A stretch of 37,187 nt of DNA, taken from positions 1-37,187 of IMG/VR virus record IMGVR_UViG_3300027971_000112; one strand, written 5' to 3'. Made by a program: the position numbers and the translations under genes. Shown one piece after another: positions 17,595 to 36,251 of this stretch; within the stretch, counting starts at the first letter, position 1, and each line of letters opens with the position of its first letter. Under the pieces are notes generated by a model that did no database searches, was not told the DNA's origin, and worked only from the letters and a program-made list of their open reading frames with translations. The stretch is from a virus.

Positions 17595-20500
17595 ATGGCG
17601 TGTAATTTAACATATAATATTAGTATAACAGGTGATTGTGCTAACTCTTTTGCGGGGGGATTTACTATTGATATACCAGGGGTTGCACCACCATATACGA
17701 TACAATGGGTTAGCCCTTTTAATGATATAATTCCTTTACCTAGTGTATCGGGAGTTTCATATTACAGTAAGATTTTCTTAACTGCGGGGACGTACTCATT
17801 TAATATAATTGATAGTTGTTCACCTAATACGGTTTTACCGGTGAATGTTTTAATATCTAGTGGTACTTGTACTTCAATAGATAGTCATACTGATACATTA
17901 TGTGGTTTGAATAATGGTTCAATAACCGCGTCAACAACGTATTCATATGGAAATGCGATATTTTCTTTATATGAGACTACGTCAGGATTTATTACATATT
18001 CTTCACCTTACTCAAATGTCGCGGAATTCAAATTTTTAAGTCCTGGTACATATTATGTAGTTGCGGACGATGGTGCCGGATGTACAGGTATGTCAGAAAC
18101 TTGTATTGTAAAAACTTCCACAACAATTAACTATGATTTATATGTGGTTAATGATGCTGGATGTACAACTAATTCAGGTAAAATATTTATAAGTGGTTTA
18201 ACGGGTAATCCACCATACTCATACTTATGGTCAAATGGTCAAACGGGGGATTCATTAACTGGGTTAACTGAGGGAACATATAGTGTTACTGTAACGGATA
18301 ATAGTGGATGTGGTGTCCTTAAAAGTGCTGATGTTATGTTGGTGCGTCCTGTAATAATTGGGTCGTTATTTGTGAGTCAGCCAAATTGTTTTATCGCTGA
18401 TGGTGAGGTAACTGTGGTTGTTGCAGATGGGACAGCACCATTTTATTATTTAGCCTCTAATGGTGAGTCAATAATAACATTCGATAGAACGGTTGTTTTT
18501 ACAAATTTATCACCTGGTGGGTTTAGTGTTGAGGTAACTGATGCGGGATTATGTAAGGCCAGCTCTTCAACAACATTATTAGCACCTGCGGGAATATCAA
18601 GTGTGTCGGTTAATATAACAAATTCAAAATGTAATGATTTATCGGGTGTTTTAGGTCCAATCACAGTATTAGGTGGAACACCACCATATACATATACATT
18701 AACAGATTCTAACGGTAATATAACAACAAATACTGTAAATTTTAATGTTTGGCAGTTTCAAAACTTATCATCAGGTAACTATACTTTAGGTGTGACGGAT
18801 TTAGGTCCTTGTACTTATTCAAGTACCTATACAATTAATAATGATGTTTTATTTGGTTTAACTACGTCAACTACCGGAACTACCGGTGGAGAAAATAACG
18901 GAAGTGTTACATTGTATATCACTAGTGGAGGTACTCCTCCATATACTTATAGTATTAACTCTCAATCATTAACAACTTCTGTAACGTCATACACTTTTAA
19001 TAATTTAACCTCAGGGAATTATCTTGCTAGTGTGGTTGATAGTACTAAATGTTATCAATCATCACCATTTACAATTGACAATTCGGTGGCTGTTGATTTC
19101 CACTTATCAAGTAGTGAGTTTGCGGTTAATTCGGATGGTGAAATATCTGCGTATGTTTTAGATGGTAAACCACCTTTTGAATTTATATGGTCAAATGGAG
19201 ATACTGGTATGACGGTTAATAATTTATCCGCAGGTACGTACTCTCTTAGAGTAGTTGATGCGGATGGTTTCTCAAAAACAAAACAAATTGTTATTAAAGG
19301 TAATAATACCTATAATGGTTCAGGGACTTATAGTGTTTGTAGTGGTAATTTAACATTGGGTAAAAATCCTGTGATTGTTAAAACAGGTCCTAGAGAAATG
19401 TTAAATGAAGGGTTTTATGATTTAACGTCAGGATTTACAAATTGTGTATTAAATAATGCTGTTTTTACTCTTAATGTTACCGTAGGAGATTTTGTTACAT
19501 CTAGTGTAATTTACACAGGATATAATTTAAATGATTACCCAAAAGATAATGTTTTTTATTATTGGGTTAAAACATTAATTGAAAGTTCCCCACAAATTGG
19601 CGCGGGAAATGTTGAAACTTATCCGGATAACACAATTTACATTAAAACTAATTGTAACCCTGAATCGTTGCATAATACATCAGTAACGGTTAGTACAACA
19701 ATTAACTATGATATTTCTTGTGAATATTGTGGACCAGTACCAAGTTCTTCGCCTACCCCAACGCCAACATTAACACCTACAATAACTCAAACACCTACTA
19801 ACACTCCTATATCTACATTAACACCAACACCGACATTGACACCAGTGCCAACATTAACACCAACAAATACTCCAACTCCTACATTAACACCAACACCGGG
19901 TGCGTCAGTTACGCCAACACCAACATTAACTCCAACGCCGGGAGCTTCAGTTACGCCAACACCAACATTAACTCCAACACCAACATTAACTCCAACAAAT
20001 ACACCAACAAATACATTAACACCAACAAATACGTTAACACTAACACCTACATTAACTCAAACCTCAACTAATACTCCAACACCAACATTAACTCAGACAC
20101 CAACTAATACTCCAACACCTACGTTAACATCAACACCAACACCGTCACCTTTAACAACATATTACGCTTATAGAGAGTGTGGTGGTAATAGAGACTCACT
20201 AGTGATTTTACAAACTATGTTGGCTATAGAAGGAATGGTATTAGGTGATACTATATTATTTACGGATAATAGAGGAAATAAAACTTGTTGGGAATTAATT
20301 GGTAATACATCGACCTTAAATCAATACTTAGGTTTATATATAAACACTTTTGATTCAGGTAATGTTAATTATTTTACAACTATTGATGGAGAAATTTATA
20401 ATTGTGAGAAATGTCTTGATACTATAAAATCATTAACTAATCCAATTGGGTTAAAATGTCCGTTAGATTTTAAATTTAGTAATAGATGTAGAGTTGAAGG

Positions 20501-20795
20501 AAACGGTTCTGTTTTATTAAACAATGTTGTTCTTTATTCTTGGGTTGGTAATTTAATAACAACTTATGGTGATGTATACAGTGTGAATGACGGTGATACT
20601 ATAATAATTAAAGTAGATTATATAGGTCAAGATAATTATTTAGTTATGGATATTCAAAGTAATGATGGTTTAGGTGAGGCCCTTGCCCCTGTATCTAACA
20701 CAATTTATGGTGTTGTTCAAAATTATCAATATTCATATAAAGTTGGGTGTGGTAAAGCACGAAATACTTTAGTTTTAACTAATAAATGTAAATAA
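17595..20795 (+). CDS. SprB-repeat adhesin/tail fibre with Pro-Thr linker
   Basis: 1066 aa. Residues 1 to about 580 consist of roughly seven SprB-type repeats of 75-90 aa, each with a (T/N)PPYTY core followed by L(S/T)xGxYxxxVxD; the clearest start near residues 200, 360, 450 and 520. SprB repeats are known from Flavobacterium cell-surface gliding adhesins. A unique domain (about 580-715) follows, then a Pro-Thr linker of PTLTPTPT type (about 716-852) and a C-terminal Cys-containing beta domain (YRECGGNRD, later KTCWEL and NCEKC). The N terminus has no signal peptide, as expected for a virion protein. Last gene of the plus-strand late operon, one base after the gpI-like gene, so it is probably the fibre attached through that protein. 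Fibre assignment is inference; repeat and linker calls are direct. Confidence 0.75.
19740..20151 (+). repeat. Pro-Thr low-complexity coding repeat
   Basis: About 410 bases of degenerate CCAACA/CCAACACCAACATTAACT units encoding PTLTPTPT-type linker. It is related in inverted orientation to tracts in the minus-strand genes at 23158-23290, 31588-31862, 32284-32356 and 32943-33050. Confidence 0.85.
19896..19979 (+). repeat. 42-bp tandem duplication inside the Pro-Thr linker
   Basis: Two copies of a 42-base unit beginning CCGGG (19896-19937 and 19938-19979) encode [14 protein letters not shown] twice. Copies differ at a few third positions, so the duplication is not brand new. Confidence 0.85.
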
Positions 20796-20800
20796 TAAAA

Positions 20801-20827
20801 AACCCCCAATTAAGGGGGTTATTTTTT
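20801..20827. terminator. Bidirectional terminator between converging operons
   Basis: Stem AACCCCC (20801-20807) and GGGGGTT (20814-20820) around loop AATTAA, with an A run on the left and a T run on the right. It can therefore end both the plus-strand late operon (stop at 20795) and the minus-strand block, whose last gene stops at 20826. Confidence 0.88.
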
Positions 20828-21425
20828 ACCATATATTTTCTTGTCTCATATGACCTAAAACACAACAATAAGCGTCTGTTTGGTCAAAGTTCTCTTTTTT
20901 GAGGGTATTGTTTCTTGTGTATTGCCAAGTGATTTGAGGTTCTTTTTTGGCAATTAAATCCCAAATAATTTGTTTCTTATCAATATCCTTTGGAAGACCT
21001 CCAAATAGTACAAATTTACCTTTGTCATTTTCTTTAACTAATTCAGGGAAGGCAAACTTACGAGAATTGTATGTAGATATGAAGTCAGGAACCACCCCTA
21101 AAACATCATAAATTTCTTTTGTGACCAAAGTATTGAACCTTAGTAATGTTTGGACTGTATACACGTTATTTGAGTTTAATAGAGGTTCCTCAATAATTAC
21201 TTTAGTAATCCCCATATCTTTATATTCTAAAAGTTTAGTTCTAAAGATTTCACCTTTAAGAAGTAATTCTTTTATTTTGTTATCTTCCTTTGGTTTTGGA
21301 GTTGGTGATACGTGGGTTAGTTCTAATAATTCTCTACTTTGTATGTCAAATAATGCCCATCCAATAGTTTTGGTGGAAACATCAAGCCCTAAAACTTTAG
21401 GGCTTTCTTTTAATGTTTTTTTCAT
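20826..21425 (-). CDS. RuvC-like Holliday junction resolvase
   Basis: 199 aa with an RNase H-like fold. GLDVSTKTIGWAL gives the first catalytic Asp (D15); VIIEEP supplies the second acid (E79 or E80); FDQTDAY supplies D181 and D184, with the same three-residue spacing as D138/D141 of E. coli RuvC. All four acids of a RuvC-family resolvase are therefore present. Such enzymes cut recombination or branched replication intermediates before packaging. The gene is the last of the minus-strand fibre block, 9 bases downstream of the tail-collar-like gene, and its stop overlaps the bidirectional terminator. Finding a DNA-processing gene among fibre genes is unusual; it would be expressed late, when DNA is debranched for packaging. 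Assignment to the RuvC superfamily is strong; substrate is inferred. Confidence 0.85.
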   Translation of the reverse strand: MKKTLKESPKVLGLDVSTKTIGWALFDIQSRELLELTHVSPTPKPKEDNKIKELLLKGEIFRTKLLEYKDMGITKVIIEEPLLNSNNVYTVQTLLRFNTLVTKEIYDVLGVVPDFISTYNSRKFAFPELVKENDKGKFVLFGGLPKDIDKKQIIWDLIAKKEPQITWQYTRNNTLKKENFDQTDAYCCVLGHMRQENIW

Positions 21426-21434
21426 ATGTTTGTT

Positions 21435-23852
21435 TTAGAAATCAAATTTAACTAAAAACTGTTGAATACCCTGTCTAAGAACAGGAGATTGTAGCTTTGA
21501 TACAATCATAAGATTCATTTCGTCATCGTAAAGACCAATTTCAGTAATATACGAATTTGTGTTGGCTGACCAACTTGGGTTTGAGGATGCTTGGAACTCT
21601 GCTTGACCAAGATTTAACTTATATTTCATCTCATAAATGGTAGCTTGAATGTCAGTTTCTAACGAACCGTAGAAATAATATTCATCTCCAAAATTAAGAG
21701 TTGTGTTCGATGTTGTTCCGGTTGGCAAATCAATATAGTCATTTAAGTTATATGTATTACCGCTAGCGGAATTATATAAATCATTAGTTATAATAAATGT
21801 GTTACCTGTAAGACCTGATTGTGTAATATACCCATTAACATTTGTTGATGTTAATTCATTACTAAAATCAATTAATCTCCATTCAGAAGATACCGGTCTA
21901 GTGTCGCCGGTTACTTTTTGACAAATTATTTGAAAAGTGTCCGCTAAATAACCTGTTGGTATGGTAGTAGTATTAGTTACTTTATTTAAACAATTAAATT
22001 CACCGTTAAATCTAACCGCCACATTTTGTGTCCCAATATTATTACAATCATTAAAAGGTCCAACAATGTTTGAGTAATAATTACAATGTAATGAGTTAGT
22101 TGCTCCTGACGATGTGTTAGTAAGTAAGTATGATACATACATACTTTCATCAGGATTTGTTAAAACACCTATGTTAGATGATTGAGTATTACAGGTGTTT
22201 GGTGTTATTAAGGATGTTGTTGCTGCCGGTAAAGTCCAGTTACGATTTGATTTATATGAAAGAGCCGCAACTAATTCATCATCATCAATTACTATAATTT
22301 TTTGGTCAGGAAATACCTTACCAACTCTATTTGGTTGTGATAAATTATTTTTGGATGGGTATGTGTCCCATAAATTATAGTAACGAATACCGGGGTCATT
22401 CATATCAGCATTTTTAGTTGATTGAATGTAGTATGGTGTTAATAATTTAGATTCAACAAATTCATCGTTAGGTGGGTCAACATAAAATGTTTCACCTATA
22501 CAACAATTTGGTGATTTGTGCCACATTAACCAAGGAATGTGTAATTTAAAGTTTCTTGCGTCACCTGTTGTATCGTCAGGTGTTAATGTACTATAAGGTT
22601 CCATAGCAAATTTTTCACCATAAAAAAAGTCTATAGTTTGATTTGTATAGTGAATAATTGCGATAGCTTTTTGGTCTTCAGGTTTTACTATAATTTTGTT
22701 TCCAAAAGTATCGGAATAATATGTAGGGTCGATTACATCTTTGTTACTATCAACAAATGTTTGACCACTGATTGTCATATACCCTAAGTATTCTTTTGTT
22801 CCTAAATAAGTTGATGATGTAAAGTTTTTAAATCCGATGTTTTGGTCGTCAAATAATCCAGCAGGATTTTCTGACCAAGGAATATTCATATTCCAAACTT
22901 TAACATCAAATTGGTCTGTATTACAAACAGATTCATAATTAATAACGTCAGGACTCCAATGTTGTAATGGTGTTACACTATCGTAAAGTGATGTCATATT
23001 TGGTGGATAAACTAATATTCTTGAATATGAACATCCTGAGGTGATATATGAAAAATCAGGTGTGACTCTATCTAATGTAATTACGTCTAAACAAATATCA
23101 ACAATTCTATAAGTTAACATACTATAACAACTACTCATAGACATTACATATTGTTGAGTAGGTGTTGGTGTACACCCTGTTGGTGTCACCACACAACAAG
23201 TTGCCGATGGAGTCGGTGTTGGTGGAGGTAAAGCACAAGCATCGTAAGATGGTGTTACCGTTGGTGTTGGTGTTGGGGTAGGTGTTGTAGGTGTTGCGGC
23301 TAAACCACAATCCGTAGCACCATTACCATCATAATAAATGGTGATAAAATCACCTTTGGCTGGTAGTCTAACAATATTTGTGTTACAACCTGAATAAATT
23401 ATCTTTATTGTTGTACCACCTGTTAGAGAATTCATATCAACAACAAAATTTGAGTTAATAACATATGAATTACTTGTTATTGCGCTCCAAGTATTTAACG
23501 TAGTATTACCTGAAAAAAATCCTCTAATTGCTGCTGTATTATAAATTGGTGCGACTTCAGAAGACATAAATGGGATACCGTAAGTATTACCATTTGTACC
23601 ATCTACATAATATGGGTACTTAATATTTTGTTTATTAGTTTGTCCCTGAGCAGAATTTTGTGAATTAAAATTAGGTTCTAAAATGTTTGTTCTTGTTTGA
23701 TTGTAATTGGTTGCTAATGTATTGTAAGACACTTCACTATCTCCAATTTGGAAATATGAAATGTTAAAATTACCTTGAGACAGTTTCAATCTACCTGTAT
23801 CAGTTAATCTTGTATTTACTAAACCCGATGTATTTTTAAGTATATATGCCAT
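21435..23852 (-). CDS. Tail fibre with split tail-collar-like domain and Pro-Thr linker
   Basis: 805 aa. The first ~46 residues (LVNTRLTDTGRLKLSQGNF, then YFQIGDSE) resemble the first half of a phage tail-collar fibre N-terminal domain. The last ~90 residues (SYITEIGLYDDEMNLMIVSK, then a short tail) resemble its second half, whose signature is IxEIGLYDxxGNL. Between lie about 670 residues, including a Pro-Thr linker at about 187-232 (PTPTPTPTVTP and CVVTPTGCTPTPTQ) and Asn/Thr-rich beta regions. The simplest reading is one attachment domain carrying a large inserted receptor-binding arm, but two separate domains are possible. A TATTTATAC element lies just before the ATG. The RuvC-like gene follows 9 bases downstream. 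Confidence 0.65.
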   Translation of the reverse strand: MAYILKNTSGLVNTRLTDTGRLKLSQGNFNISYFQIGDSEVSYNTLATNYNQTRTNILEPNFNSQNSAQGQTNKQNIKYPYYVDGTNGNTYGIPFMSSEVAPIYNTAAIRGFFSGNTTLNTWSAITSNSYVINSNFVVDMNSLTGGTTIKIIYSGCNTNIVRLPAKGDFITIYYDGNGATDCGLAATPTTPTPTPTPTVTPSYDACALPPPTPTPSATCCVVTPTGCTPTPTQQYVMSMSSCYSMLTYRIVDICLDVITLDRVTPDFSYITSGCSYSRILVYPPNMTSLYDSVTPLQHWSPDVINYESVCNTDQFDVKVWNMNIPWSENPAGLFDDQNIGFKNFTSSTYLGTKEYLGYMTISGQTFVDSNKDVIDPTYYSDTFGNKIIVKPEDQKAIAIIHYTNQTIDFFYGEKFAMEPYSTLTPDDTTGDARNFKLHIPWLMWHKSPNCCIGETFYVDPPNDEFVESKLLTPYYIQSTKNADMNDPGIRYYNLWDTYPSKNNLSQPNRVGKVFPDQKIIVIDDDELVAALSYKSNRNWTLPAATTSLITPNTCNTQSSNIGVLTNPDESMYVSYLLTNTSSGATNSLHCNYYSNIVGPFNDCNNIGTQNVAVRFNGEFNCLNKVTNTTTIPTGYLADTFQIICQKVTGDTRPVSSEWRLIDFSNELTSTNVNGYITQSGLTGNTFIITNDLYNSASGNTYNLNDYIDLPTGTTSNTTLNFGDEYYFYGSLETDIQATIYEMKYKLNLGQAEFQASSNPSWSANTNSYITEIGLYDDEMNLMIVSKLQSPVLRQGIQQFLVKFDF
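23158..23290 (-). repeat. Pro-Thr low-complexity coding repeat
   Basis: On the plus strand this reads as GTTGGTGTTGG/GGTGTTGTAGG units. It encodes the PTPTPTP linker in the tail-collar-like gene. Confidence 0.75.
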
Positions 23853-23876
23853 ACTGTATAAATATTATAATTTTGA

Positions 23877-25211
23877 TTATGTGTTAATTAATATTGAACA
23901 ACAATCACAACCTACTATACGAGCATTGGTGATTGAGTATGAATCGTTACTATATCCAACAACACAAGTTCCTAATGTAGTTTTATCTACTCTTGTTGAT
24001 GTGGTAATGGTAATAATGTCTGTATTTGTTAATTCTAATGAATTCCAAGAGTCTGACGTACTATATTGATATATTGTTGTATTTTGACAACCTGGTGATG
24101 TATTAATCGATGTTGAATTACCACTAAATGTTGTTGATAACGGAATAGATATTTCATTTTTGTATAATAATGTACCTGTAGTTAATATTGATGTACCACT
24201 TAATGGTCCTGAGTAAAAACTATTGTTGTGTACAAAATCAAAATATAATGTAGTACCATCCGGTAGTTCCGGTGTTACTAAAATAGTTGTCTCGTAAGTT
24301 TTAGAGATAGTCGTTGGATTATTAATTTGAGTACTTGGGGTGGTATTCAAAGATAATGTATATGTTGTTGCGAGTGTTGGTTCATCTAAAGTAATTGTTT
24401 TAACAAAATTATTACCTAATGAATCTAAAATAGATAAACTATATATTCCTGAACATAATTTTGAGAATAAAGGTGAATCGCTGTATGTAACACCATTATT
24501 AATTGAATATGTATATGGTGGATTATCCAAACTAGGGTTAAATGAAATACTTCCATCACATAAACAAGTTGGTTGGTTAATACTAACAGGGTATGATTGT
24601 CTCAAATATGTTTCTGAAGGACAATTACCTTCTCTCGTTGTAATATTAAGTCTTTCGTTTCTATTGTTACCAATTACACCCCAACCCTCTAATGGTGGGT
24701 TTGAAGTGACATTAGTAGATGATGTTATTGTGACTGGAAATGATGTTCCGTATGGTTGATAACCGGATAAAACCCAAATACTTCCATCCCATCTAATTTG
24801 AATCCCCTCGTCTGTTTCATCAACCCAATAAGGTGTGTTATTAATAGTATTTGTATCACCATAAATAAATTGTATTCTGTTAAAAATAGTACTATTTTCA
24901 AACGACATACAAAAATCTTTATAAACAATATTGTTAGTTGGTACTAATGTAATTGTATTTTCAGGGCAAAGTTGATTGTATAGATATAAAACTGTTGTCG
25001 AAATTGGAACCTCAACAATAATTCCCTCACCCGTTAATTCATCTATATCTAAATTTTGAGCGTATACCGGAGGTGTGGTGATAGGGTAAACCTTTGGAAC
25101 AATAGATGACGCTGATGGTGGATTAGTAGGGAATACACCGTAGTAAACCGTGTATGGACCTGGCGATGTTCCACCGGTTATTTGAATTGTGTAATATTTT
25201 TTTGTACTCAT
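23877..25211 (-). CDS. Fibre/adhesin with an SprB-type repeat
   Basis: 444 aa. Residues 1 to about 95 form a small beta-rich domain with PGPYTVYYG near the start and EVPISTTVLYLYN later, similar in outline to the N termini of the neighbouring 738-, 573- and 185-aa proteins. An Asn-rich middle segment follows. Residues about 205-285 are a single SprB-type repeat (CDGSISFNPSLDNPPYTYSI, then LCSGIYSLSILDSLG). The C terminus is beta-rich and Thr-rich and ends with CDCCSILIN. It lies between two minus-strand fibre genes with 24 and 2 bases of spacing and has no signal peptide. A receptor-binding or decorating role is inferred from modules and context; the repeat call is direct. Confidence 0.65.
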   Translation of the reverse strand: MSTKKYYTIQITGGTSPGPYTVYYGVFPTNPPSASSIVPKVYPITTPPVYAQNLDIDELTGEGIIVEVPISTTVLYLYNQLCPENTITLVPTNNIVYKDFCMSFENSTIFNRIQFIYGDTNTINNTPYWVDETDEGIQIRWDGSIWVLSGYQPYGTSFPVTITSSTNVTSNPPLEGWGVIGNNRNERLNITTREGNCPSETYLRQSYPVSINQPTCLCDGSISFNPSLDNPPYTYSINNGVTYSDSPLFSKLCSGIYSLSILDSLGNNFVKTITLDEPTLATTYTLSLNTTPSTQINNPTTISKTYETTILVTPELPDGTTLYFDFVHNNSFYSGPLSGTSILTTGTLLYKNEISIPLSTTFSGNSTSINTSPGCQNTTIYQYSTSDSWNSLELTNTDIITITTSTRVDKTTLGTCVVGYSNDSYSITNARIVGCDCCSILINT

Positions 25212-25213
25212 AA

Positions 25214-27430
25214 CTATATAATATATGTTGGGTTAGAAGTTGTTACTGTTCCACCTGAAAATCTGTAAGCTAAAACTAAATTAGTTGTGTCTGCGCTATA
25301 ATTAACTATAGGTGCTGCCCAAATTTCAAAATCATTTTGATTTAATAAATTTGGTAATCGACATTGGTAATACCATTTATAGTGGCGAAATTTTTGATAA
25401 CTTCCAGGATTGTCCAATGAACCTGATTGGTTATAATTACATACAGTTCCGGATAATGATGGAATTATTGTTGACGGGTTACCCGAAAATGGGTATGTAT
25501 TACCAATGGATGTTGAACTTCTGAAATAACCATATGCGGCTCCAGTTAGTTTTGAGTAGGAGTTTTCATAAATATAATAAGTGTATGTCGAACCTGTATA
25601 GTAAATACCTATTGGTGAAAAAACTCTGTTCGTTCCCATATAAGTTGAGGTTGTCCCTGTTGAATAATTGTTTACGTTGATAACAATACTGTCAATATTA
25701 CCTTGACAACCAGAGTTACAACCCGCAGGTGCAGTTGGATATTGGTTTGTAATTGTATTTGCTGTTAATTTCAAATAATATTGGCTACCTGTTATTCCTG
25801 TAACAATAGTAGATGTAGGGTGTAAATAAATTTCTTTAGTTCTTGTCCCAACAAAATCCCCACAATCATTCGGTGCTGTCGATGATGGAATGACCATTAT
25901 CGTATATCTGTAATAACTAAGACTTGTCGGTAATGTACCATCAACCCAACATAAGGATTTTGCGGTTACCCAATCATTATAATATGATGAAATAAATTGA
26001 CTTGACCCTGTAAAACCAAAAACACCTTTACCATCAAGTGAAAATGTTTTATCGTATGATGTTGGGGTCGCGTCCTCAGTACAACTAGGTAGTACTACGT
26101 AATTACAATACCCAGCAAAACAAGTAAATTTAGGTAAATAAAGACCGAAATTATTACTAATGGTCGAAAGGTTTGAGGTTGTATATTCGTCAATAGAGTT
26201 GTAATTACCGTAAAATCCGTAGTATTTATATAGGTCACTATTGTCTTGGTCAATTTGAGAACAACCACTAACTGAAAATACTATGTCGTTAGAGCCACAA
26301 TTACCGGTTGTTGAGGTAATTGTTGAACCAATTATTTTATTTGTGGTGTTAGTTGTTAAACAATCGTCACAGTCAAAATCATTTAAACAAGTGATGTATA
26401 AGTTCCATAATGTATTTTGAGTTGTCGGTTGTACCTTAATTTCAATATTATCGTTATTATTAATAGTTAACCCTGTTAAAGTTGTTATTTTTCTATAATA
26501 ATAAATACTATTACCGGTGTTGGCTGATTTAGGGTATATGTTTGGGGTTAAATTAGTAACAAGACCAATATTTGAACCAATTAATATATCCTCTAACCCT
26601 ATTTTCGTTGTACCATAAGTGGCCCCACTGAGAGTTATCGTTAATCTATCCGGTCTTTCATAACCTAAAAATGACCAAGCAAGATATTTGGTACTTGCAG
26701 ATATTTTAAAAGTTGATTCAACAGTTTGTGGGCTGCTTGATGAAATGTCTAAACTTAAAAAATGTGTGTATCCAGTAAATAATCCGGTGTTGTTTGTTCT
26801 AAAATCACAAGTTAATGGTAATACGTTTGTTGTTGGTAAACAATTTAAAAAACTCGTAGGTATATTATTAGTACCACCCGTATTAGAATATGTATATCCA
26901 TTAATTTTAACCTTTTCAATGATTGGTGTATAAACACCCGCAATTGAAGGGATTGAACGACCAGGTCCTGATAATGGGTGTGTGTAAGTACTTACAGGAT
27001 TCGCATATACTCCACCACCTGAAGAAAATGCAAATGTTGTTGTATTGTCAGGTCCGTACCAATTTATTTTATAATCAACTATTGGCGTTTGACAAGACCC
27101 TGTTAATACTCCCGCAGTAATTACCGCCGATGTTGATGCCGAATATAGTGATAAACCTAAATTACAAGTTTGACATATGTTGTTATCTTGAACCGGAATA
27201 CTAATACAATAACTAGTTGGTATGTCTTTAAAATTAATAACCGTTGTCCCTGTAGGAACTTCAATTATATAAGGACAACTACTACCTGAAATCTGAGATA
27301 AGTTAATAGGGGTTAGATTGTATGGTGGGACATCATAGTTGTTGTTTAAATAAATGTCGAAAGGACCTGTTGCCGGTACAGGACCAGGATTATATGTTAT
27401 ACAAGTTGCGGCTGAAAATGTTGCTGGCAT
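25214..27430 (-). CDS. Fibre/adhesin-like structural protein
   Basis: 738 aa. The N-terminal ~85 residues (GPFDIYLNNN, then IIEVPTGTTVINF) resemble the putative attachment domain of neighbouring minus-strand genes. The remainder is Thr, Ser, Asn, Tyr and Gly-rich with regular beta strands and several Cys pairs (CDCDDC-like stretch LNDFDCDDCL near residue 345; CNSGCQ near 570), as in extended fibres. No recognisable SprB, PKD or BspA unit is seen in the body, so the binding specificity cannot be guessed. It ends on a TAG codon 2 bases before the next gene. No membrane helix or signal peptide. Call rests on composition, N-terminal similarity and position. Confidence 0.55.
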   Translation of the reverse strand: MPATFSAATCITYNPGPVPATGPFDIYLNNNYDVPPYNLTPINLSQISGSSCPYIIEVPTGTTVINFKDIPTSYCISIPVQDNNICQTCNLGLSLYSASTSAVITAGVLTGSCQTPIVDYKINWYGPDNTTTFAFSSGGGVYANPVSTYTHPLSGPGRSIPSIAGVYTPIIEKVKINGYTYSNTGGTNNIPTSFLNCLPTTNVLPLTCDFRTNNTGLFTGYTHFLSLDISSSSPQTVESTFKISASTKYLAWSFLGYERPDRLTITLSGATYGTTKIGLEDILIGSNIGLVTNLTPNIYPKSANTGNSIYYYRKITTLTGLTINNNDNIEIKVQPTTQNTLWNLYITCLNDFDCDDCLTTNTTNKIIGSTITSTTGNCGSNDIVFSVSGCSQIDQDNSDLYKYYGFYGNYNSIDEYTTSNLSTISNNFGLYLPKFTCFAGYCNYVVLPSCTEDATPTSYDKTFSLDGKGVFGFTGSSQFISSYYNDWVTAKSLCWVDGTLPTSLSYYRYTIMVIPSSTAPNDCGDFVGTRTKEIYLHPTSTIVTGITGSQYYLKLTANTITNQYPTAPAGCNSGCQGNIDSIVINVNNYSTGTTSTYMGTNRVFSPIGIYYTGSTYTYYIYENSYSKLTGAAYGYFRSSTSIGNTYPFSGNPSTIIPSLSGTVCNYNQSGSLDNPGSYQKFRHYKWYYQCRLPNLLNQNDFEIWAAPIVNYSADTTNLVLAYRFSGGTVTTSNPTYII

Positions 27431-27439
27431 ATGTTTATA

Positions 27440-28111
27440 TTATGTTATGTCAAATGTATATCCGGAGATGTTATTAGGGATACATTCAATTACAATGTAT
27501 TCTGTTATAGATGCGCCAAAAGAACAATCTTTGTCTGTAAATATTGTACAATAAACTGTTTCTGTAAAATCTCCGTAAGAATCTACAACAGTTGCTGCGT
27601 AAGTACCGTTTGGTATATTATTTAATGCGGGGTGGATACCCATACTTGGGTTTGTTGATGAAGACCAATAAACCGTATATGGTGGCGTCCCACCTGTAAT
27701 TGATACTGAGACTTCACCATCTGACGATTGTATTGATGATGGGTTACTATTAACACACACAACGTCCATAGGCATAATTGTGATAACGCCACATTCATTT
27801 ATTTGTCCTGTTATTATAGGAATATTAACAGGGGCTGGAGTAAAACACGGAAATATCTCTATACAAGTACTACAATCATAAGAGTAAAATGTTGGTGTTG
27901 AATTATAGATTGTTAATCCTTCTAATGGAGTTGAAGTAACACCACTATATGTTACACAACCTGAGAATAATCCATCTAAAACAACCGCGTATTGATTCCC
28001 GACTGTTGGTGTAAAATTAGTCCAAGGCGTTGTTGTTTCACCACTTGATATTCCAAAAGATGATATATTTTGGCAACAAGCCGAAAAGTAATATATGTTA
28101 TTCCCTACCAT
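27440..28111 (-). CDS. Short fibre/adhesin with an SprB-type repeat
   Basis: 223 aa. Residues about 1-90 form a Cys-containing beta domain (YFSACCQN, later GCVTYSGVTSTPLEGL and DCSTC) resembling the Cys domains that follow Pro-Thr linkers in the neighbouring adhesins. Residues about 128-190 are one SprB-type repeat (DGEVSVSITGGTPPYTVYWS, then IPNGTYAATVVDSYGD). First gene of this part of the minus-strand cluster, preceded by a divergent intergenic region with TATTTATAG elements on both strands. It lies 9 bases upstream of the 738-aa gene. Likely a short decoration or receptor-binding protein; the SprB call is direct and the role inferred. Confidence 0.65.
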   Translation of the reverse strand: MVGNNIYYFSACCQNISSFGISSGETTTPWTNFTPTVGNQYAVVLDGLFSGCVTYSGVTSTPLEGLTIYNSTPTFYSYDCSTCIEIFPCFTPAPVNIPIITGQINECGVITIMPMDVVCVNSNPSSIQSSDGEVSVSITGGTPPYTVYWSSSTNPSMGIHPALNNIPNGTYAATVVDSYGDFTETVYCTIFTDKDCSFGASITEYIVIECIPNNISGYTFDIT

Positions 28112-28132
28112 TTTATATTTGTTATTTTACTA

Positions 28133-28161
28133 TAAATAATCTAAAGTTTGATTTTATTAAA
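28133..28161 (-). promoter_or_regulatory. Candidate late promoter for the SprB/fibre sub-operon
   Basis: On the minus strand: TTTA, 17 bases, ATTATTTA followed by TAG, located 21 bases before the ATG at 28111. It has the same layout as the candidates before 2128 and 33275. Unverified and in AT-rich DNA. Confidence 0.3.
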
Positions 28162-28179
28162 ATATAATTGACATTTACT

Positions 28180-28209
28180 TTTAATAAATGGTGTGATTGG
28201 TGATATTTA
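28180..28209 (+). promoter_or_regulatory. Candidate promoter of the 60-aa gene
   Basis: TTTA (28180-28183), 18 bases, then GATATTTA (28202-28209) followed by TAG, 5 bases before the ATG at 28215. The spacing and flank copy the candidate at 2092-2122. Confidence 0.3.
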
Positions 28210-28214
28210 TAGAT

Positions 28215-28397
28215 ATGAAACTTATAAGTACCATATCAAATATTGTTACAGAAGCTAAAGAACTATATGAATTGGCTTGTGATAAAGGTGTTCCGGAAAA
28301 AGAATTGGAACGTCTTGAGAAAAATTATTATGAATCCTTAAAACTTCTAAGGATATATGAAAACTTGGGTAAATCGCCTAAGAAATTAACAGATTAA
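28215..28397 (+). CDS. Small charged helical protein, function unknown
   Basis: 60 aa from the ATG at 28215; an in-frame TTG 18 bases upstream is a poorer start because it would overlap the promoter-like element. The sequence is mostly amphipathic helix with heptad-like hydrophobics (MKLISTISNIVTEAKELYEL, then KELERLEKNYYESLKLLRI) and many Lys and Glu, so it may dimerise or bind nucleic acid or a partner protein. It is the only plus-strand gene within a 12-kb minus-strand block. Its stop TAA and that of the converging BspA-repeat gene share the bases TTAA (28394-28397). No family recognised. It may regulate the flanking fibre genes or be an unrelated insertion. Confidence 0.6.
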   Translation: MKLISTISNIVTEAKELYELACDKGVPEKELERLEKNYYESLKLLRIYENLGKSPKKLTD

Positions 28398-30115
28398 ATA
28401 CCACCATCGTAAATTGTCCAACCATACGTTCCTGTTAGAATTGATTTTCCCGCAGAACCTCCGGAAGTATATTTTATATTTCCAAAATTAATGGTTATAC
28501 CTGAATGAAGAGATGGTAATGAGCTCCACCCATTGTATATTGCGTCTAAGTTTGTTGTTGAGAAGTCAGTATAACTTTTACCATACATAAATTGATTAAA
28601 GTTTGTAACTCCGGTAACGTTCCAAGAACCAATATTTTGGTTAAATGCTCCGGAACCAAACATACTTTGCATATTTGTTACATTTCCAACATCCCAAGAA
28701 CCTATAGGTTGATTAAACATTGTGTCACCAACAAACATATTTGACATACTTGTTACACCTGATACAATCCAACCACTTATGTTTTGATTGAAGATTGTTG
28801 CACCGGCAAACATACTTTGCATATTTGTTACACTTGAAGTGTTCCAAGATGTAATATTTCCGTTAAAATTATAACACAAGAAAAACATATAATGCAAATA
28901 TTCTACATTACTAGTGTCCCACAAATTAAGATTTTGATTAAATGATTGGTTAAAAAAGAACATAGATGACATATTTATAACATTACTAACATCCCAAGAA
29001 TTTATATCTTGATTAAATGATGTTATTGAAAACATACTATCCATATTTGTAACCCCGGATACATTCCAACCACCAATGGATTGGTTAAAATTAGAATAAT
29101 AGAACATATACTCCATACCTGTAACACTTGAAACATTCCAGTTATCAATAGGTTGGTTAAATTGTGTGTTACTAAACATATATCCCATACCTGTAACGTT
29201 AGAAACGTTCCATCCTGATAATGGTTGATTAAATATTGTTGCACTGTTAAACATTGAAGACATATTTGTTACGTTACTAACATCCCAAGAACTAATATCC
29301 GAATTAAATGAAGAACATCCTGCAAACATATAATTCATATCTATAATATTCGATGTGTTCCAAGAACTAATGTCTGAATTAAAATTTAAACAATTATTGA
29401 AGGTTGCAACAAATGATTGAATATTTGAGACATCCCAAAGATTTGAGTTATTAATTGTTGTTAGAGAATAACACCCATCGAATGTATTGTTAAAACCGTT
29501 TGAATATGTTAAATTTGGAATATCGTTGACTGTTGATAAGTCTAAATTTGAACAATTATAAAAAGTTTGAGTTTCATATTGACCAAATTGTAAACATCCC
29601 CACTGTGTGATAGATAGTATTTTATCTGAATCGGGAACTAACGCGGCACCAAATGACCAATCAGATATTGTACCTGTGATGGTTAATGTATATATACCTG
29701 GTGTGGGGTAGGTATGTAGTGTTTCAGGTTGATTCCAAGATGATATTTTTTCAACGGTACCATCACCCCAATCTATGTCAAAATAATATGTTACTCCATT
29801 AACTAATGGTAATTGTATTTGATTACTTAAACTAGACCCACCTGAAGTATTTGTTGTATCCCAAATTGAGATAAAGGGAGGGATTACAGAATAACAATCA
29901 ATTACTCTAAATCTTTCACAACCATCTAATGTGATAACTTTAATCCCAACGGATGAAACCATATCAAATTGGGGTGGTAATAATATCGTATTACTTGGTG
30001 GAATACTTGTAAAAACTGTTGATAATAATATGCAATTGTTACCATAGATATCACACACATAAATGTCGTATGGATAACTTAATCCTATTATATTTGTGAT
30101 ATCGATTGTTGTCAT
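28394..30115 (-). CDS. BspA-type (DUF285) repeat adhesin with PKD-like domain
   Basis: 573 aa. Residues 1 to about 75 are the putative cluster attachment domain (YPYDIYVCDIYGNNC). Residues about 105-150 are PKD-like (YYFDIDWGDGT, then LHTYPTPGIYTLTITG). From about 190 to 510 come twelve BspA-type leucine-rich/DUF285 repeats of 23-26 aa, each carrying W(D/N)(V/T)S(N/S)(V/I)xxMxxMF. The last ~60 residues form the typical C-terminal cap of flavobacterial BspA-like surface proteins (GWSSL, IKYTSGGSAGKSILTGTYGW, then a short end). BspA proteins bind host or surface ligands; in a phage this suggests a receptor-binding fibre captured from Bacteroidota. No signal peptide. It begins 11 bases after the next gene upstream and overlaps its convergent neighbour by 4 bases. 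Confidence 0.8.
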   Translation of the reverse strand: MTTIDITNIIGLSYPYDIYVCDIYGNNCILLSTVFTSIPPSNTILLPPQFDMVSSVGIKVITLDGCERFRVIDCYSVIPPFISIWDTTNTSGGSSLSNQIQLPLVNGVTYYFDIDWGDGTVEKISSWNQPETLHTYPTPGIYTLTITGTISDWSFGAALVPDSDKILSITQWGCLQFGQYETQTFYNCSNLDLSTVNDIPNLTYSNGFNNTFDGCYSLTTINNSNLWDVSNIQSFVATFNNCLNFNSDISSWNTSNIIDMNYMFAGCSSFNSDISSWDVSNVTNMSSMFNSATIFNQPLSGWNVSNVTGMGYMFSNTQFNQPIDNWNVSSVTGMEYMFYYSNFNQSIGGWNVSGVTNMDSMFSITSFNQDINSWDVSNVINMSSMFFFNQSFNQNLNLWDTSNVEYLHYMFFLCYNFNGNITSWNTSSVTNMQSMFAGATIFNQNISGWIVSGVTSMSNMFVGDTMFNQPIGSWDVGNVTNMQSMFGSGAFNQNIGSWNVTGVTNFNQFMYGKSYTDFSTTNLDAIYNGWSSLPSLHSGITINFGNIKYTSGGSAGKSILTGTYGWTIYDGGI

Positions 30116-30126
30116 AATTAATTTAT

Positions 30127-32685
30127 TTACACACCACTATCTCCGGTTATTACCCAATTTTTAGTTGTTGTTAAATATGTTCTACTAGCTCCTGCTGTTG
30201 AAATTGTGTATTGTAATCCCGTTGCTCCCATTACAATAGATGATTGTAATCCTGGTAAAGATGACCAATTGATTAACATATTACTGTAATTTAATGTATT
30301 TAAACCACAATAATTAAATGCTTGGTTTAATCCTGTGGAAGAGATATTAACGTATGTTAATCCGGTTACAATCCAATTACTAATGTTTTGGTTAAAAGAT
30401 GTGGCGCTAAAAAATATTGAGTTCATTTGTGTAACATTTGAAACATTCCAACCTGATAATGGTTGGTTAAATAGTGTGGCGTTGTTAAACATACTAGACA
30501 TATTTGTTACATTATAAACATTCCAATTGGTTATACCTGTTGAACCACCGTTATTAAATGATGAGTTGACAAACATTAAACTTGTATCGGTATTGTTTTG
30601 CATATTCCAATTGGATATGTTTTGATTAAATATTGTACCATAAAACATTTGAGTTGTGGCGGTTACACTAGAAAGGGTGGAGAGATTAGGTGATGTTCTT
30701 TCCCAATTATTAATTGGTTGATTAAACGATGCCGCTCCTCGAAACATCAATAACATACTATTTACGGAGTTAAGGGTCCATCCACTAATTGATGTTGTTC
30801 CGTTATTATTGAATGACGTTGCGCTAAAAAACATACCTTCCGTCGTTGTAACATTTGACATATCCCAATTTCCTAAGTCTTGATTAAAGTTAAAAGCTTC
30901 ACTAAAAGTGCTTGAAGTGTTTAATAATGACGTTGTTGTCCAATCTCCAATAGGTTGGTTAAATAATTGACATTTACCAAATGTTAACCTCATATCAGTG
31001 ACATTTGAAACGGACCAATATCGAATACTATCGGACCCACCATTATTGAATACCAAACATCCGTAAAACATACCAAATAAAACTGTTGAGTTTGTCATAT
31101 CCCAATCACCAATGTTTTGGTTAAAACTAGTACATCCTCTAAAAAGGTACTTAAATGTTGAAACATTTGATACTAACCAAGAATTTAAATTATTGATAGT
31201 AGTTATTGATGAACAATCTCTAAAAAATCCTTCCATTGAATTATTTAGATAAACAGGTGTATCGGTAACTCCGGTTAATACTAAGTTACTACATCCGTAG
31301 AATGCGTTAATACTGGTATCGGTGTCAAATTGACCCCAATGTATTATTTCTCTAATTTTTAGTTTATTTCCAATATTATTAAAACTCCACCCTTGTAGAG
31401 GTCCATCAATTGTTATAGTATAATCTCCGGCAACTGCGTAAGTATGTGTTCTATTTGCGTATGAACTAATAGATACGTTCCCGTCTCCCCAATCAATTTC
31501 TCCACCATATGTTCCGCTAACACTATATGGTAAGGTAACGCTCTCTGATGATGTTGTTGTTCTCCATACTGACGTGAAAAAAGTTGGTGCTAAAGATGGT
31601 GTAGGTGTTGGGGTTGGTGTTGAGGTTGGTGTGTATGTTGGTGTTGGAGTATATGTTGGGGTATATGTTGGTGTAGGTGTGTTAGTTGAAGTTTGAGTTG
31701 GTGTTTGAGTTAGGGTTGGTGTTTGAGTTGGTGTAGGTGTTTTAGTACCTCCTGGAGTGTTTGTTGGGGTATATGTTGGTGTGGGAGTGTTTGTAGGTGT
31801 TTTTGTTGGAATAATGGTTTGTGTTGGTGTTTGTGTTGGTGTTGGTGTTTGTGTTGGAGGTACATAATCTTCACATTCAAGGCATTTACCGTTATTGACA
31901 TTACCAAATGAAACTGTTTCAATAATAATTTCATTTGTGTTAATATCTACATCATTATTAGAGTTACCAATATATGCAATACAGTTAGAACTATTGTCAA
32001 CTAATGCTCCATATACTTGATATAGTTCTAACGATTGTTCTGGTAATAATGACACATTAGAACAATAAAATAATTCGTTATCGTAACAATTTTGGAATGT
32101 TAAAATGCTTGAACACTCAATATTGTCATTAATTAGAAAAAAAGTAACTTCTTGAGTAAAATCACAATTAGTGATTGATAAAGGTTCGAATACCTGTAAT
32201 GGGGGATTATTCTCAACCATTAACGGTAATGTTTGAGGTAATCTATATGCTACCGCGTCAATTCCAATAATAGAACAAGGGTTTGTTGCCGTTGGTGTTA
32301 TTGTCGGTGTTGGGGTAATAGTTGAGGTTGGTGTTATTGTTGGTGTTGGAATAAACTCACAATCAAATACTGCGTTAAAATCTAAAACGCTACAATTATT
32401 TGTTGGTGTTGGGGTTGGAGTAGGGCAAACCCCTGAATAAACATACGAGGTACTTAAATCAGGGCAAGAACTAAAACAAGGTGTTTTTCCTGCTAACGAA
32501 CAACTTCCACTAAAAGTGTCAGATAGACACCACTGACTAGTTGTTCCGGTTGAATAAAAGATTACCCACCCATTAGTTTGTCCCGACCAATATGTGTAGC
32601 CATTATGGGTTCCACCTGTTATATAGGTGTCGTCGGCTCCAACTAAACCGGTGTTATTTATACAGTATATTGAACTACAAGGCAT
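30127..32685 (-). CDS. Multi-domain BspA-type/PKD adhesin with Pro-Thr linkers
   Basis: 852 aa. The N-terminal ~85 residues form a Cys-containing carbohydrate-domain-like module (ITGGTHNGYTYWSGQTNGW, then WCLSDTFSGSC). Three Pro-Thr tracts follow at about 86-96, 110-134 and 275-366, separated by a Cys-bearing beta region (about 135-270). Residues about 380-430 are PKD-like (GGEIDWGDGN, then THTYAVAGDYTITIDG). From about 455 to 790 come BspA/DUF285 repeats with more divergent W-x-x-S cores than the neighbouring 573-aa protein, and the C-terminal cap (INWSSLPGLQSSI, then SRTYLTTTKNWVITGD) matches that protein's cap. This is the most elaborate adhesin of the block, probably a long flexible fibre. 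No signal peptide. Spacing to the next gene is 11 bases. Confidence 0.8.
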   Translation of the reverse strand: MPCSSIYCINNTGLVGADDTYITGGTHNGYTYWSGQTNGWVIFYSTGTTSQWCLSDTFSGSCSLAGKTPCFSSCPDLSTSYVYSGVCPTPTPTPTNNCSVLDFNAVFDCEFIPTPTITPTSTITPTPTITPTATNPCSIIGIDAVAYRLPQTLPLMVENNPPLQVFEPLSITNCDFTQEVTFFLINDNIECSSILTFQNCYDNELFYCSNVSLLPEQSLELYQVYGALVDNSSNCIAYIGNSNNDVDINTNEIIIETVSFGNVNNGKCLECEDYVPPTQTPTPTQTPTQTIIPTKTPTNTPTPTYTPTNTPGGTKTPTPTQTPTLTQTPTQTSTNTPTPTYTPTYTPTPTYTPTSTPTPTPTPSLAPTFFTSVWRTTTSSESVTLPYSVSGTYGGEIDWGDGNVSISSYANRTHTYAVAGDYTITIDGPLQGWSFNNIGNKLKIREIIHWGQFDTDTSINAFYGCSNLVLTGVTDTPVYLNNSMEGFFRDCSSITTINNLNSWLVSNVSTFKYLFRGCTSFNQNIGDWDMTNSTVLFGMFYGCLVFNNGGSDSIRYWSVSNVTDMRLTFGKCQLFNQPIGDWTTTSLLNTSSTFSEAFNFNQDLGNWDMSNVTTTEGMFFSATSFNNNGTTSISGWTLNSVNSMLLMFRGAASFNQPINNWERTSPNLSTLSSVTATTQMFYGTIFNQNISNWNMQNNTDTSLMFVNSSFNNGGSTGITNWNVYNVTNMSSMFNNATLFNQPLSGWNVSNVTQMNSIFFSATSFNQNISNWIVTGLTYVNISSTGLNQAFNYCGLNTLNYSNMLINWSSLPGLQSSIVMGATGLQYTISTAGASRTYLTTTKNWVITGDSGV
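31588..31862 (-). repeat. Long Pro-Thr low-complexity coding repeat
   Basis: About 275 bases of degenerate GTTGGTGTTGG / GTATATGTTGG units (plus-strand reading) encoding the longest PTPTYTPT/PTQTPT linker in the 852-aa gene. Smaller tracts of the same gene lie at 32284-32356 and 32399-32431. Confidence 0.85.
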
Positions 32686-32717
32686 ATTATTTTTTTATTT
32701 TAATTATTCTCATTTAA

Positions 32718-33275
32718 TTATGGACAACCACCAAAGATTATTAACCAAGTACTACAGTCATTATAGTTTGTGTAGTCAATAATACTAATTGTCGGTATAC
32801 CACTAATTGCAATACCTGTCACTACTTCATAAGGTAAACCATTTGTTGCCGTATATGTACTCGGTAATGATGTAAAAATAGGATTATAGGCAACATATTG
32901 AGTTGTTAAATCACAACATCCGTATAATTCTAAAACTAATACAGCGGGTGTTGTAGTTGGGGTTACAGTTGGGGTTACAGTTGGGGTTACAGTTGGGGTT
33001 AAAGTATTTGTTGGGGTTATAGTTGGTGTTGGTGTTGGGGTGCTACTAGCTATAATAACATTAAGATTTTGATAAAAGACACAACTATTACTGTCGACAA
33101 CTTTTAAACTAAACGAAGATTGACTTCCCATTATAACCGGAACTACAAAATTGTAAGGTAATGACGACGAAGGTATGGTATCAATATAGATACAAGTAAT
33201 ATTTGATGGGTCACATAAATAAATGTTAAATGGTGATGCTCCCGATATGTTGTTAATTAAAATGTTCGTTGTCAT
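32718..33275 (-). CDS. Short fibre/adhesin with Pro-Thr linker, first gene of the minus-strand block
   Basis: 185 aa in three parts. Residues 1 to about 75 are the putative attachment domain (MTTNILINNISGASPFNIYL, then CDPSN), clearly similar to the start of the 573-aa protein. Residues about 76-110 are a Pro-Thr linker (PTPTPTITPTNT, then TVTP repeats). Residues about 113-185 are a small Cys-containing beta domain (LELYGCCDLTTQYVAYNP, ending WLIIFGGCP), which resembles the C-terminal domain of the plus-strand 1066-aa adhesin. It is the minimal example of the domain-linker-domain plan of the cluster. A TATATTTAT element lies upstream; the next gene is 32 bases downstream. Role as fibre or decoration protein is inferred. 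Confidence 0.65.
   Translation of the reverse strand: MTTNILINNISGASPFNIYLCDPSNITCIYIDTIPSSSLPYNFVVPVIMGSQSSFSLKVVDSNSCVFYQNLNVIIASSTPTPTPTITPTNTLTPTVTPTVTPTVTPTTTPAVLVLELYGCCDLTTQYVAYNPIFTSLPSTYTATNGLPYEVVTGIAISGIPTISIIDYTNYNDCSTWLIIFGGCP
32956..33001 (-). repeat. 12-bp tandem repeat, nearly four copies
   Basis: Nearly four identical copies of GTTGGGGTTACA (plus-strand reading), encoding Thr-Val-Thr-Pro repeats in the 185-aa protein. Perfect identity suggests recent expansion by slippage; each unit adds four residues and keeps the reading frame. Confidence 0.9.
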
Positions 33276-33295
33276 TTAATGAAATGTTATTATCA

Positions 33296-33325
33296 TAAAT
33301 ATAGGGGGATTAAAAAACTAATAAA
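33296..33325 (-). promoter_or_regulatory. Candidate late promoter of the minus-strand fibre block
   Basis: On the minus strand: TTTA (33325-33322), 18 bases, then TATATTTA (33303-33296) followed by TGA, 20 bases before the ATG at 33275. It abuts the divergent primase promoter. Confidence 0.4.
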
Positions 33326-33327
33326 GT

Positions 33328-33358
33328 TTTGATAATAATAATTTTATTCGTATATTTG
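33328..33358 (+). promoter_or_regulatory. Bacteroidota-type promoter of the primase operon
   Basis: TTTG (33328-33331), 19 bases, then TATATTTG (33351-33358). This is an exact match to the published Bacteroidota consensus TTTG/TAnnTTTG. The ATG at 33363 is only 4 bases further on, and the next in-frame Met lies beyond the zinc-finger Cys pair, so this start is forced. The transcript is therefore probably leaderless or nearly so. Confidence 0.6.
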
Positions 33359-33362
33359 ACTT

Positions 33363-36160: not shown

Positions 36161-36251
36161 AGACAAATTCTCCGATGAGGAGTGGGAAGAATTACTTAAA
36201 AAAATAGAACAAGAAGATAAAGAGCGTGAAGCGAATCGAGTTAACAAGTAG
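36147..36251 (+). CDS. 34-aa charged ORF overlapping both neighbours
   Basis: GTG-started ORF of 34 aa (KFSDEEWEELLKKIEQEDKE core), very rich in Glu and Lys and likely a single helix. It overlaps the end of the Mre11-like gene by 14 bases and the start of the next gene by 26 bases; a stop codon lies two codons upstream of the GTG, so no longer start exists. Overlaps at both ends fit translational coupling in a compact operon. No family recognised, and a GTG start with no clear ribosome site makes this a tentative call. Confidence 0.4.
   Translation: MGNLRDKFSDEEWEELLKKIEQEDKEREANRVNK

Follow-up and report, generated by a model that had tools for sequence, protein, structure and literature searches.

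A gene block with a RuvC-like resolvase has inverted repeatedly between two fibre-like units at a probable adsorption locus of large aquatic phages

Why should a run of adhesin-like genes lie on the minus strand between the plus-strand structural and replication genes of a phage, and does such a run form a single cassette? The question is raised by the 37-kb virus record IMGVR_UViG_3300027971_000112, whose full length of 37,187 nucleotides is the window analysed here and which is a fragment relative to the records of its relatives (up to 322 kb). The left part of the window carries, on the plus strand, a ribonucleotide reductase gene and gp25-type and gp6-type baseplate wedge genes, followed by mostly tightly packed large genes up to g10; primase and exonuclease genes lie on the same strand to the right of m8. 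Between them, at 20826-33275, are eight long minus-strand ORFs, a RuvC-like gene (m1) and seven adhesin- or fibre-like genes (m2 to m8, numbered left to right). A sequence-only reading had located this run correctly, between structural and replication genes and ending in the RuvC-like gene. Its description of the seven genes as consecutive does not hold, since they are interrupted by a conserved plus-strand gene of 60 codons, k1 (28215-28397).

The comparisons presented here suggest that the run consists of two units: a flipping block A (k1 and m5-m4-m3-m2-RuvC) and a unit B (m8-m7, in the window with m6) which normally adjoins the primase gene. The fixed flank of block A is g10 (17595-20795, plus strand), the final gene of the structural run, encoding a protein of 1066 residues with seven SprB-like repeats, a Pro-Thr linker and an exchangeable C-terminal tip. 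At the RuvC end of the block, a symmetrical terminator-like hairpin facing both directions and flanked on either side by T runs (20801-20820) lies between g10 and m1 (20826-21425), the final gene of the block. It is followed by m2 (21435-23852; 805 residues), the conserved core of the block; m3 (23877-25211; 444 residues), with an SprB-like repeat and a conserved C-terminal region; m4 (25214-27430; 738 residues), in which an N-terminal domain A precedes a beta-rich body; and m5 (27440-28111; 223 residues), with its own N-terminal domain and an SprB-like repeat, which is the first gene of the block in the window. The 282-base gap between m5 and m6 holds k1, at the outer edge of the block, whose stop codon overlaps that of m6, and a divergent intergenic region (28112-28214) where the divergent layout and an AT-rich motif before k1 point to the transcription start or starts of block A. 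Unit B comprises m8 (32718-33275; 185 residues), its first gene, with domain A, a Pro-Thr linker and a short C-terminal domain; m7 (30127-32685; 852 residues), with a conserved N-terminal carrier of about 275 residues, Pro-Thr linkers and a tip of PKD-like and DUF285 modules; and m6 (28394-30115; 573 residues), its last gene in the window, with domain A, a PKD-like domain and DUF285/PARCEL repeats. Transcription of unit B would start in the 87 bases between m8 and the primase gene (33276-33362), an equal divergent layout being present in 79 loci. Over the whole region, hairpins do not exceed those in shuffled sequences (10 versus 7.4), and sigma-70-like sites are fewer than in shuffles (75 versus 86.6). 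Further to the right, a plus-strand ORF of 237 residues (36226-36939) contains repeated Lys/Glu/Val-rich units with direct repeats D7 and D10 and has relatives in 22 of 79 loci.

The modules attributed to these proteins by the sequence-only reading were recovered for the most part, at differing strength. DUF285/BspA repeats (the 26-residue PARCEL repeats of NCBIfam) are found in m6 (E 1e-119; 393.6 bits) and m7 (E 5.4e-65; 217 bits) against a curated cut-off of 25. SprB (PF13573) exceeds its cut-off of 28 in g10 (74.1 bits) and remains below it in m3 (16.6) and m5 (22.4), and the PKD-like domain of m6 (17.8 bits) is below the Pfam cut-off of 23.5; grown profiles recover both, joining m3, m5 and seven segments of g10 into one SprB-like family and showing the PKD-like domain to be common to m6, m7 and the structural-run gene g07. 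An N-terminal domain A of about 70 residues is likewise common by profile to m4, m6 and m8. It is the sole such domain of m4, which has none of the modules named earlier, and in most relatives m8 is domain A alone (71-84 residues). Pro-Thr linkers are present in m2, m7, m8 and g10, and modules of the minus-strand run also occur beyond the terminator, in the plus-strand g10. The view that these modules are typical of Flavobacteriia surface adhesins needs qualifying for DUF285: of 50,697 phage records, 114 hold a relative of m6, including 43 from Synechococcus phages, so that DUF285 alone is no mark of host origin.

Relatives were collected by scanning IMG/VR with m2, which gave 249 relatives, of which 79 loci were kept, and by five more scans with m2 from other clades, which brought the set to 302 loci including the window and to 144 after removal of identical stretches. 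Among the 50,697 phage records, m2, g09 and the m7 carrier have no match at E 1e-3, while the N-terminal part of g10 matches one record and m4 matches two, all of them uncultured. Distant relatives of m2 occur in one Bacteroidota MAG and one Ca. Wolfebacteria MAG. Neither AGGA nor GGAG occurs within 20 bases upstream of any of the 19 genes of the window, which presumably fits a Bacteroidota host; TANNTTTG is not clearly enriched (70 versus 61.7 expected, 16 of 100 shuffles being as high). The host is probably a member of the Bacteroidota. The largest records of relatives span 308-322 kb, indicating a genome above 200 kb. Among 10 large relatives, the 3 largest encode DnaK, and 2 others have a match to glutamine synthetase. 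The best explanation proposed is a myovirus of a large, mostly uncultured freshwater or aquatic group with records of up to 322 kb. The group is probably that of the moraphages, an assignment made from core genes, DnaK, glutamine synthetase and genome size.

The orientation of m2 relative to the structural and replication flank bears directly on the cassette question. Among the 144 non-identical loci, window included, m2 is on the same strand as the flank ('+') in 102 and on the opposite strand ('-') in 41, one locus being unclear. The other genes of the block turn with it: where both are present, the strand agrees with that of m2 for RuvC in 142 of 142 loci, for the m3 C-terminal family in 136 of 136 and for a gene of about 325 codons in 98 of 98, and the outer flanks of block A agree with each other in 83 of 85. 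The m7 gene lies on the other strand from the flank in 87 of 93 loci. Of the remaining loci, L084 departs genuinely, and some owe their place to g10 genes picked up by the m7 profile. In the divergent L084, m7 and m8 are on the plus strand, upstream of m3-m2-RuvC, and do not adjoin the primase gene. Domain-A genes like m6, as well as m4, lie on either side of block A depending on the relative, which means that the border between the two units shifts. In a distant relative (L162) and for the relatives of the m2 C-terminus in three deposited phages, the gene is on the strand of the structural genes, and the orientation of block A in the window is therefore probably the derived one.

A single unit, that is, a co-inherited seven-gene cassette of virion adhesins binding several receptors or mucus, as had first been supposed, is consistent with the window and its closest kin, in which all seven genes are on one strand, and with modules that are differently built and tips that are exchangeable. 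However, m1-m3 are reversed in most relatives while m7-m8 are not, and k1 splits the run, which makes one cassette unlikely. In the orientation found in the window, block A would simply be aligned with unit B, so that two units mimic one cassette of seven genes.

Unit B, which would begin beside the primase gene, includes the fibre-like m7 with its conserved carrier and swappable tip, and g10, on the other side of block A, would be a second carrier of this kind. Among pairs of loci, which are not independent, and with the count restricted to proteins that have both a Pro-Thr linker and a 50-residue tip (73 of 102 m7 and 59 of 134 g10), those with m2 60-85% identical have a detectable m7 carrier in 1538 of 1539 cases versus a detectable tip in 151, and a detectable g10 carrier in 852 of 852 versus a tip in 165. 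For pairs with m2 at least 85% identical, the corresponding figures are 86 of 86 versus 44 for m7 and 78 of 78 versus 60 for g10. The m7 tip of the window, PKD-like and DUF285, is replaced by a different repeat protein in L006 and L062, whose m2 is 96% and 95% identical, and by yet another in L008 (90%), while the g10 tips are still related (60-83%); the m7 tip thus turns over faster than the g10 tip in this clade. Across phages, 17 of 73 m7 tips and 16 of 59 g10 tips are shared between the two carriers (62 matches, none within one locus), which suggests that both draw on an overlapping pool. Relatives have more differently built genes at the locus. Conserved carriers with exchangeable tips are a trait that receptor-binding genes tend to show, and this supports a fibre or adhesin locus. 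An association of the '-' orientation with a g10 tip looked strong (37 of 41 versus 41 of 93) but lost its support after correction for relatedness, which left about 6 independent pairs (median p 1).

The main reason for reading the locus as adsorption machinery is its position. The nearest deposited relatives by gp6 and primase, at 26-34% identity, keep the order gp25-gp6 ... primase, and in Flavobacterium phage immuto the interval from gp25-gp6 to the primase-exonuclease holds genes annotated as tail fibre and tail spike, three of these genes matching PHROG tail or virion families. Moreover, among 159 ORFs the last 60 or so residues of m2 have one match each in immuto, in Microcystis phage Mel-JY01 and in LR756508 (E 2e-6 to 2e-4), and the gene concerned in immuto lies two genes before the first annotated fibre. 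This synteny and the one shared domain suggest that the proteins are located in the virion and act as fibres. Use of several receptors may be envisaged. That virion parts are encoded here is also hinted at by a relative whose block contains a member of a virion structural family (L137:4804-6018, plus strand; phrog_1645, E 3.6e-50), and a protease-family gene (phrog_20754, E 5e-20) lies amid the minus-strand fibre-like genes of another (L070:19277-20497, minus strand). Position and tips thus uphold the fibre or adhesin reading of the locus; one protein may depart from it, as m5 has a single, weak PHROG match (E 1.9e-5), which falls in a family of Hoc-like head decoration proteins, so that a place on the head, as a decoration protein, is possible for m5. 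Structure prediction gave models of mean pLDDT 70.9 for m2 and 75.8 for m4. Fold searches were middling for both: the best Z for m2 was 7.6, with several phage tail components ranking high, and that for m4 was 7.8, to unrelated proteins and mostly over one beta-rich stretch (about 159-406). Foldseek with m2 returned nothing below E 0.001 from the PDB and three rows from BFVD, the best being an uncharacterised protein of an uncultured phage at 42% identity, and a PDB profile search with m2 gave a Pro-Thr low-complexity match only. Pfam lent no support to a suspected likeness between m2 and a split tail-collar domain (DUF3751).

The same modules are found in bacterial surface proteins, and the products might accordingly be placed on the infected cell, or leave it, with roles in exclusion or biofilm rather than in the virion. 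Yet none of the N termini is signal-peptide-like by a simple hydropathy check, in agreement with what had been noticed from the sequence (m6 has a hydrophobic stretch at 28-38 and no K or R among its first eight residues); no type IX sorting domain is above its cut-off, with one weak internal match in g10; and the genes lie among baseplate genes, in synteny with annotated fibres. Such a destination is distinctly improbable, and a virion adsorption locus is retained as the preferred reading.

How often does block A turn? On FastTree phylogenies, at least 7 changes of orientation, 6 of them forced by starred branches, are needed for g09, a gene outside the block (125 rows), and for m2 within it (144 rows); a small RuvC tree, also by FastTree, requires 6, of which 3 are forced. 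The orientation label is strongly clustered on the trees, none of 500 shuffles being as low, which indicates that the inversion is recurrent but slow. Repeated inversion between fibre-like genes recalls a phase-variable switch of the Gin, Cin or Ein kind, in which an invertase often flips the block within populations and alters host range. This tree clustering argues against it, as does the single opposite-orientation pair versus 23 same-orientation pairs above 95% identity among the first 80 sequences. Furthermore, all 10 large relatives searched (121-322 kb, records that are perhaps incomplete) lacked matches to serine or tyrosine recombinase families (PF00239, PF00589), with positive controls. 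A switch of this kind is therefore very improbable. Reverse transcriptase (PF00078) was also found in none of the 10, with controls positive in 3 of 14.

The edges of the reversed part can be followed in individual pairs of loci. In BLAST comparisons of ten opposite pairs, several of which share one event, block homology is reversed and flank homology direct in all ten. Between L139 or L072 and L130, the reversed part stretches from the g10 stop codon as far as that of the following minus-strand gene. For L063/L121 and L095/L100 its limit is the m7 stop codon; the remaining pairs have greater divergence or less sharp edges. In the one close pair, L066 and L068 (96-97% identical), a 5.7-kb segment is reversed between collinear flanks; L068 has at the breaks a 60-base, 75% inverted repeat derived from a duplicated m7 end and has lost its g10 tip, and its contig ends about 200 bases past the break, so that this pair is weak alone. 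The notion that both orientations are assembly errors at repetitive Pro-Thr coding DNA, which could appeal to the mutual inversion of this DNA between g10 and m7 and to the contig end of L068, is the least probable of the alternatives, given whole clades with one orientation across many metagenomes, rigid co-orientation of the block genes and several pairs with block homology reversed between collinear flanks.

The inversion would instead proceed by general recombination or break repair and not by an invertase. Repeats at the edges are Pro-Thr coding repeats in the window and L066, and in the window this DNA is inverted between g10 and m7. A crossover between the g10 and m7 linkers, by which inversion itself would swap tips, finds no support in the one close pair, whose break is at the 3' ends. 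The resolvase carried by the block is a possible participant. It matches a PHROG RuvC family (E 1.2e-5) with no Pfam match at E 0.1, and its acidic residues D15, E79/E80, D181 and D184, which are probably catalytic, are conserved in 98% or more of 140 rows. The RuvC of the block is the only match to that of the window in each of the 10 large relatives. RuvC-like resolvases do other work in phages, and a part in the inversion of the block is possible.

The layout of the block suggests how it might be turned round without losing expression. Of the 144 loci, window included, a profile detected k1 in 37 and tblastn in 38; a detectable k1 is thus absent from the majority, and the layout with k1 is not general. 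Wherever k1 was detected, its strand is opposite to that of m2: in all 37 profile-detected loci, of which 24 are '-' and 13 '+', and in all 38 found with tblastn. In each of the 37 it diverges from the gene at its back and converges with the abutting gene, which is g10 or another gene in '+' and m6 or another gene in '-' loci. Its product is Lys/Glu-rich, 46-98% identical in 37 other loci, and is perhaps, as a guess, a small assembly helper. At the opposite end, within 110 bases, a hairpin of at least 7 pairs, including 3 G-C, follows RuvC in 101 of 141 loci versus 0.7 expected from shuffles; by the same rule it follows m2 in 25 of 142, m3 in 0 of 134 and g09 in 1 of 106. It is present in 64 of 99 '+' and 37 of 41 '-' loci, the 40 of 141 in which it is absent by this rule being mostly '+'.

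The motif TATTTAT occurs within 60 bases upstream, on the strand of the gene, in 108 of 122 distinct regions for m2 and 30 of 31 for k1, against a background of 0.024 per 60 bases. The corresponding counts are 58 of 128 for short domain-A genes, 31 of 65 for g08 and 38 of 156 for g10-type genes, and the motif is nearly absent upstream of g07 (0 of 44), g09 (0 of 78), RuvC (1 of 113) and the exonuclease gene (0 of 69). It is strand-specific, often ATATTTATA, and lies from a few to some 20 bases before the start codon; in the window it stands before 23852, 28215 and 33275, ahead of m2, k1 and m8. Its closeness to the k1 and m2 start codons leaves room for readings other than a promoter. Block A thus looks self-contained, being divergent inside, usually ended by a hairpin after RuvC and faced at both edges by the 3' ends of its neighbours. 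With this layout it could invert without being cut off from expression, and the flip may be neutral for transcription; in the group, the block has turned at least six to seven times.

Taken together, an adsorption locus of two units, with a repeatedly inverting block A, exchangeable tips and no invertase found, is a fairly probable reading of these data. Gene order, co-orientation, the repeated inversion, the contrast between carriers and tips and the hairpin are read directly from the DNA. A bolder version is unlikely: block A might be a self-contained invertible host-recognition module with its own starts, its terminator and k1 as a helper, possibly a fibre-assembly chaperone, in which the only RuvC-like resolvase of the phage helps to resolve the inverting crossovers, so that the adsorption core is rewired between two fibre operons without an invertase.

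Other genes at these loci deserve mention. A BLAST-linked set of cassette genes comprises 45 ORFs in 40 of 122 loci (for example L042:4299-8315 and L049:3749-7048); 38 of the 45 lie directly 3' of a domain-A gene, the L042 member has YadA-head-like repeats, and the members tried have no Pfam or PHROG match. The gene of about 325 codons (L066:7657-8628, plus strand, with relatives in 98 of 144 loci), which heads block A in many loci and was not detected in the window, belongs to phrog_4417, with relatives in 74 phage records including Lactobacillus, Enterococcus and Staphylococcus phages. Its motif HDADIIF suggests a glycosyltransferase, which could glycosylate the neighbouring Pro-Thr linkers. 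This activity is supported neither by a PDB profile search, which found nothing credible, nor by Pfam, where relaxing the threshold to E 10 yielded no more than an assortment of weak families, among them Nucleotid_trans (E 0.1) in 1 of 30 members.

The comparison with immuto (vB_FspM_immuto, MW353175) is closest in position: both loci lie between gp25-gp6 and the primase-exonuclease, and gp6, primase and the m2 C-terminal domain are common to both. In contrast, all genes of immuto are on one strand, no flip is seen in the one record viewed, and its fibre genes do not match m3-m8 of the window. With moraphages, as described in the sections examined of PMC12619734, the present phages share a freshwater jumbo-phage character, gp25, gp6 and primase, and DnaK and glutamine synthetase in some members. 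That paper, which probably concerns the same group, notes inversions and variable islands, calls for their study and leaves them open; its sections examined do not describe the present locus, one such place being resolved here gene by gene. The locus also provides a test bed for how large phages alter host recognition where no invertase or retroelement was found, and a warning that a co-oriented 'cassette' seen in one genome can be two units.

Inversion beside fibre genes whose N-terminal parts are conserved and whose C-terminal parts vary is a property of the Gin system of Mu and the Cin system of P1. The carotovoricin fibres of Pectobacterium, inverted by Ein, are a known case alike in these respects, to judge from the portions of PMC13195805 available. 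PARCEL/DUF285 repeats are described in the available portions of PMC2996958 and, in jumbo phage pir03, of PMC7765460; m6 and m7 carry such repeats, here as tips behind domain A or the m7 carrier and as one among several alternatives. A diversity-generating retroelement would call for a reverse transcriptase, and none was found in the 10 large relatives. A multi-gene block with RuvC and a countergene, repeatedly flipping between two fibre-like units with no invertase found, was not found described in the open-licence papers covered, among them the moraphage sections and portions of a jumbo-phage review (PMC13282480). Carrier and tip modularity and fibre inversion are already known kinds (PMC13195805, in the portions available), and unlike the Ein, Gin and Cin systems, where an invertase acts, the present locus turns several genes together, RuvC among them, with no invertase found and in a slow, tree-clustered manner.
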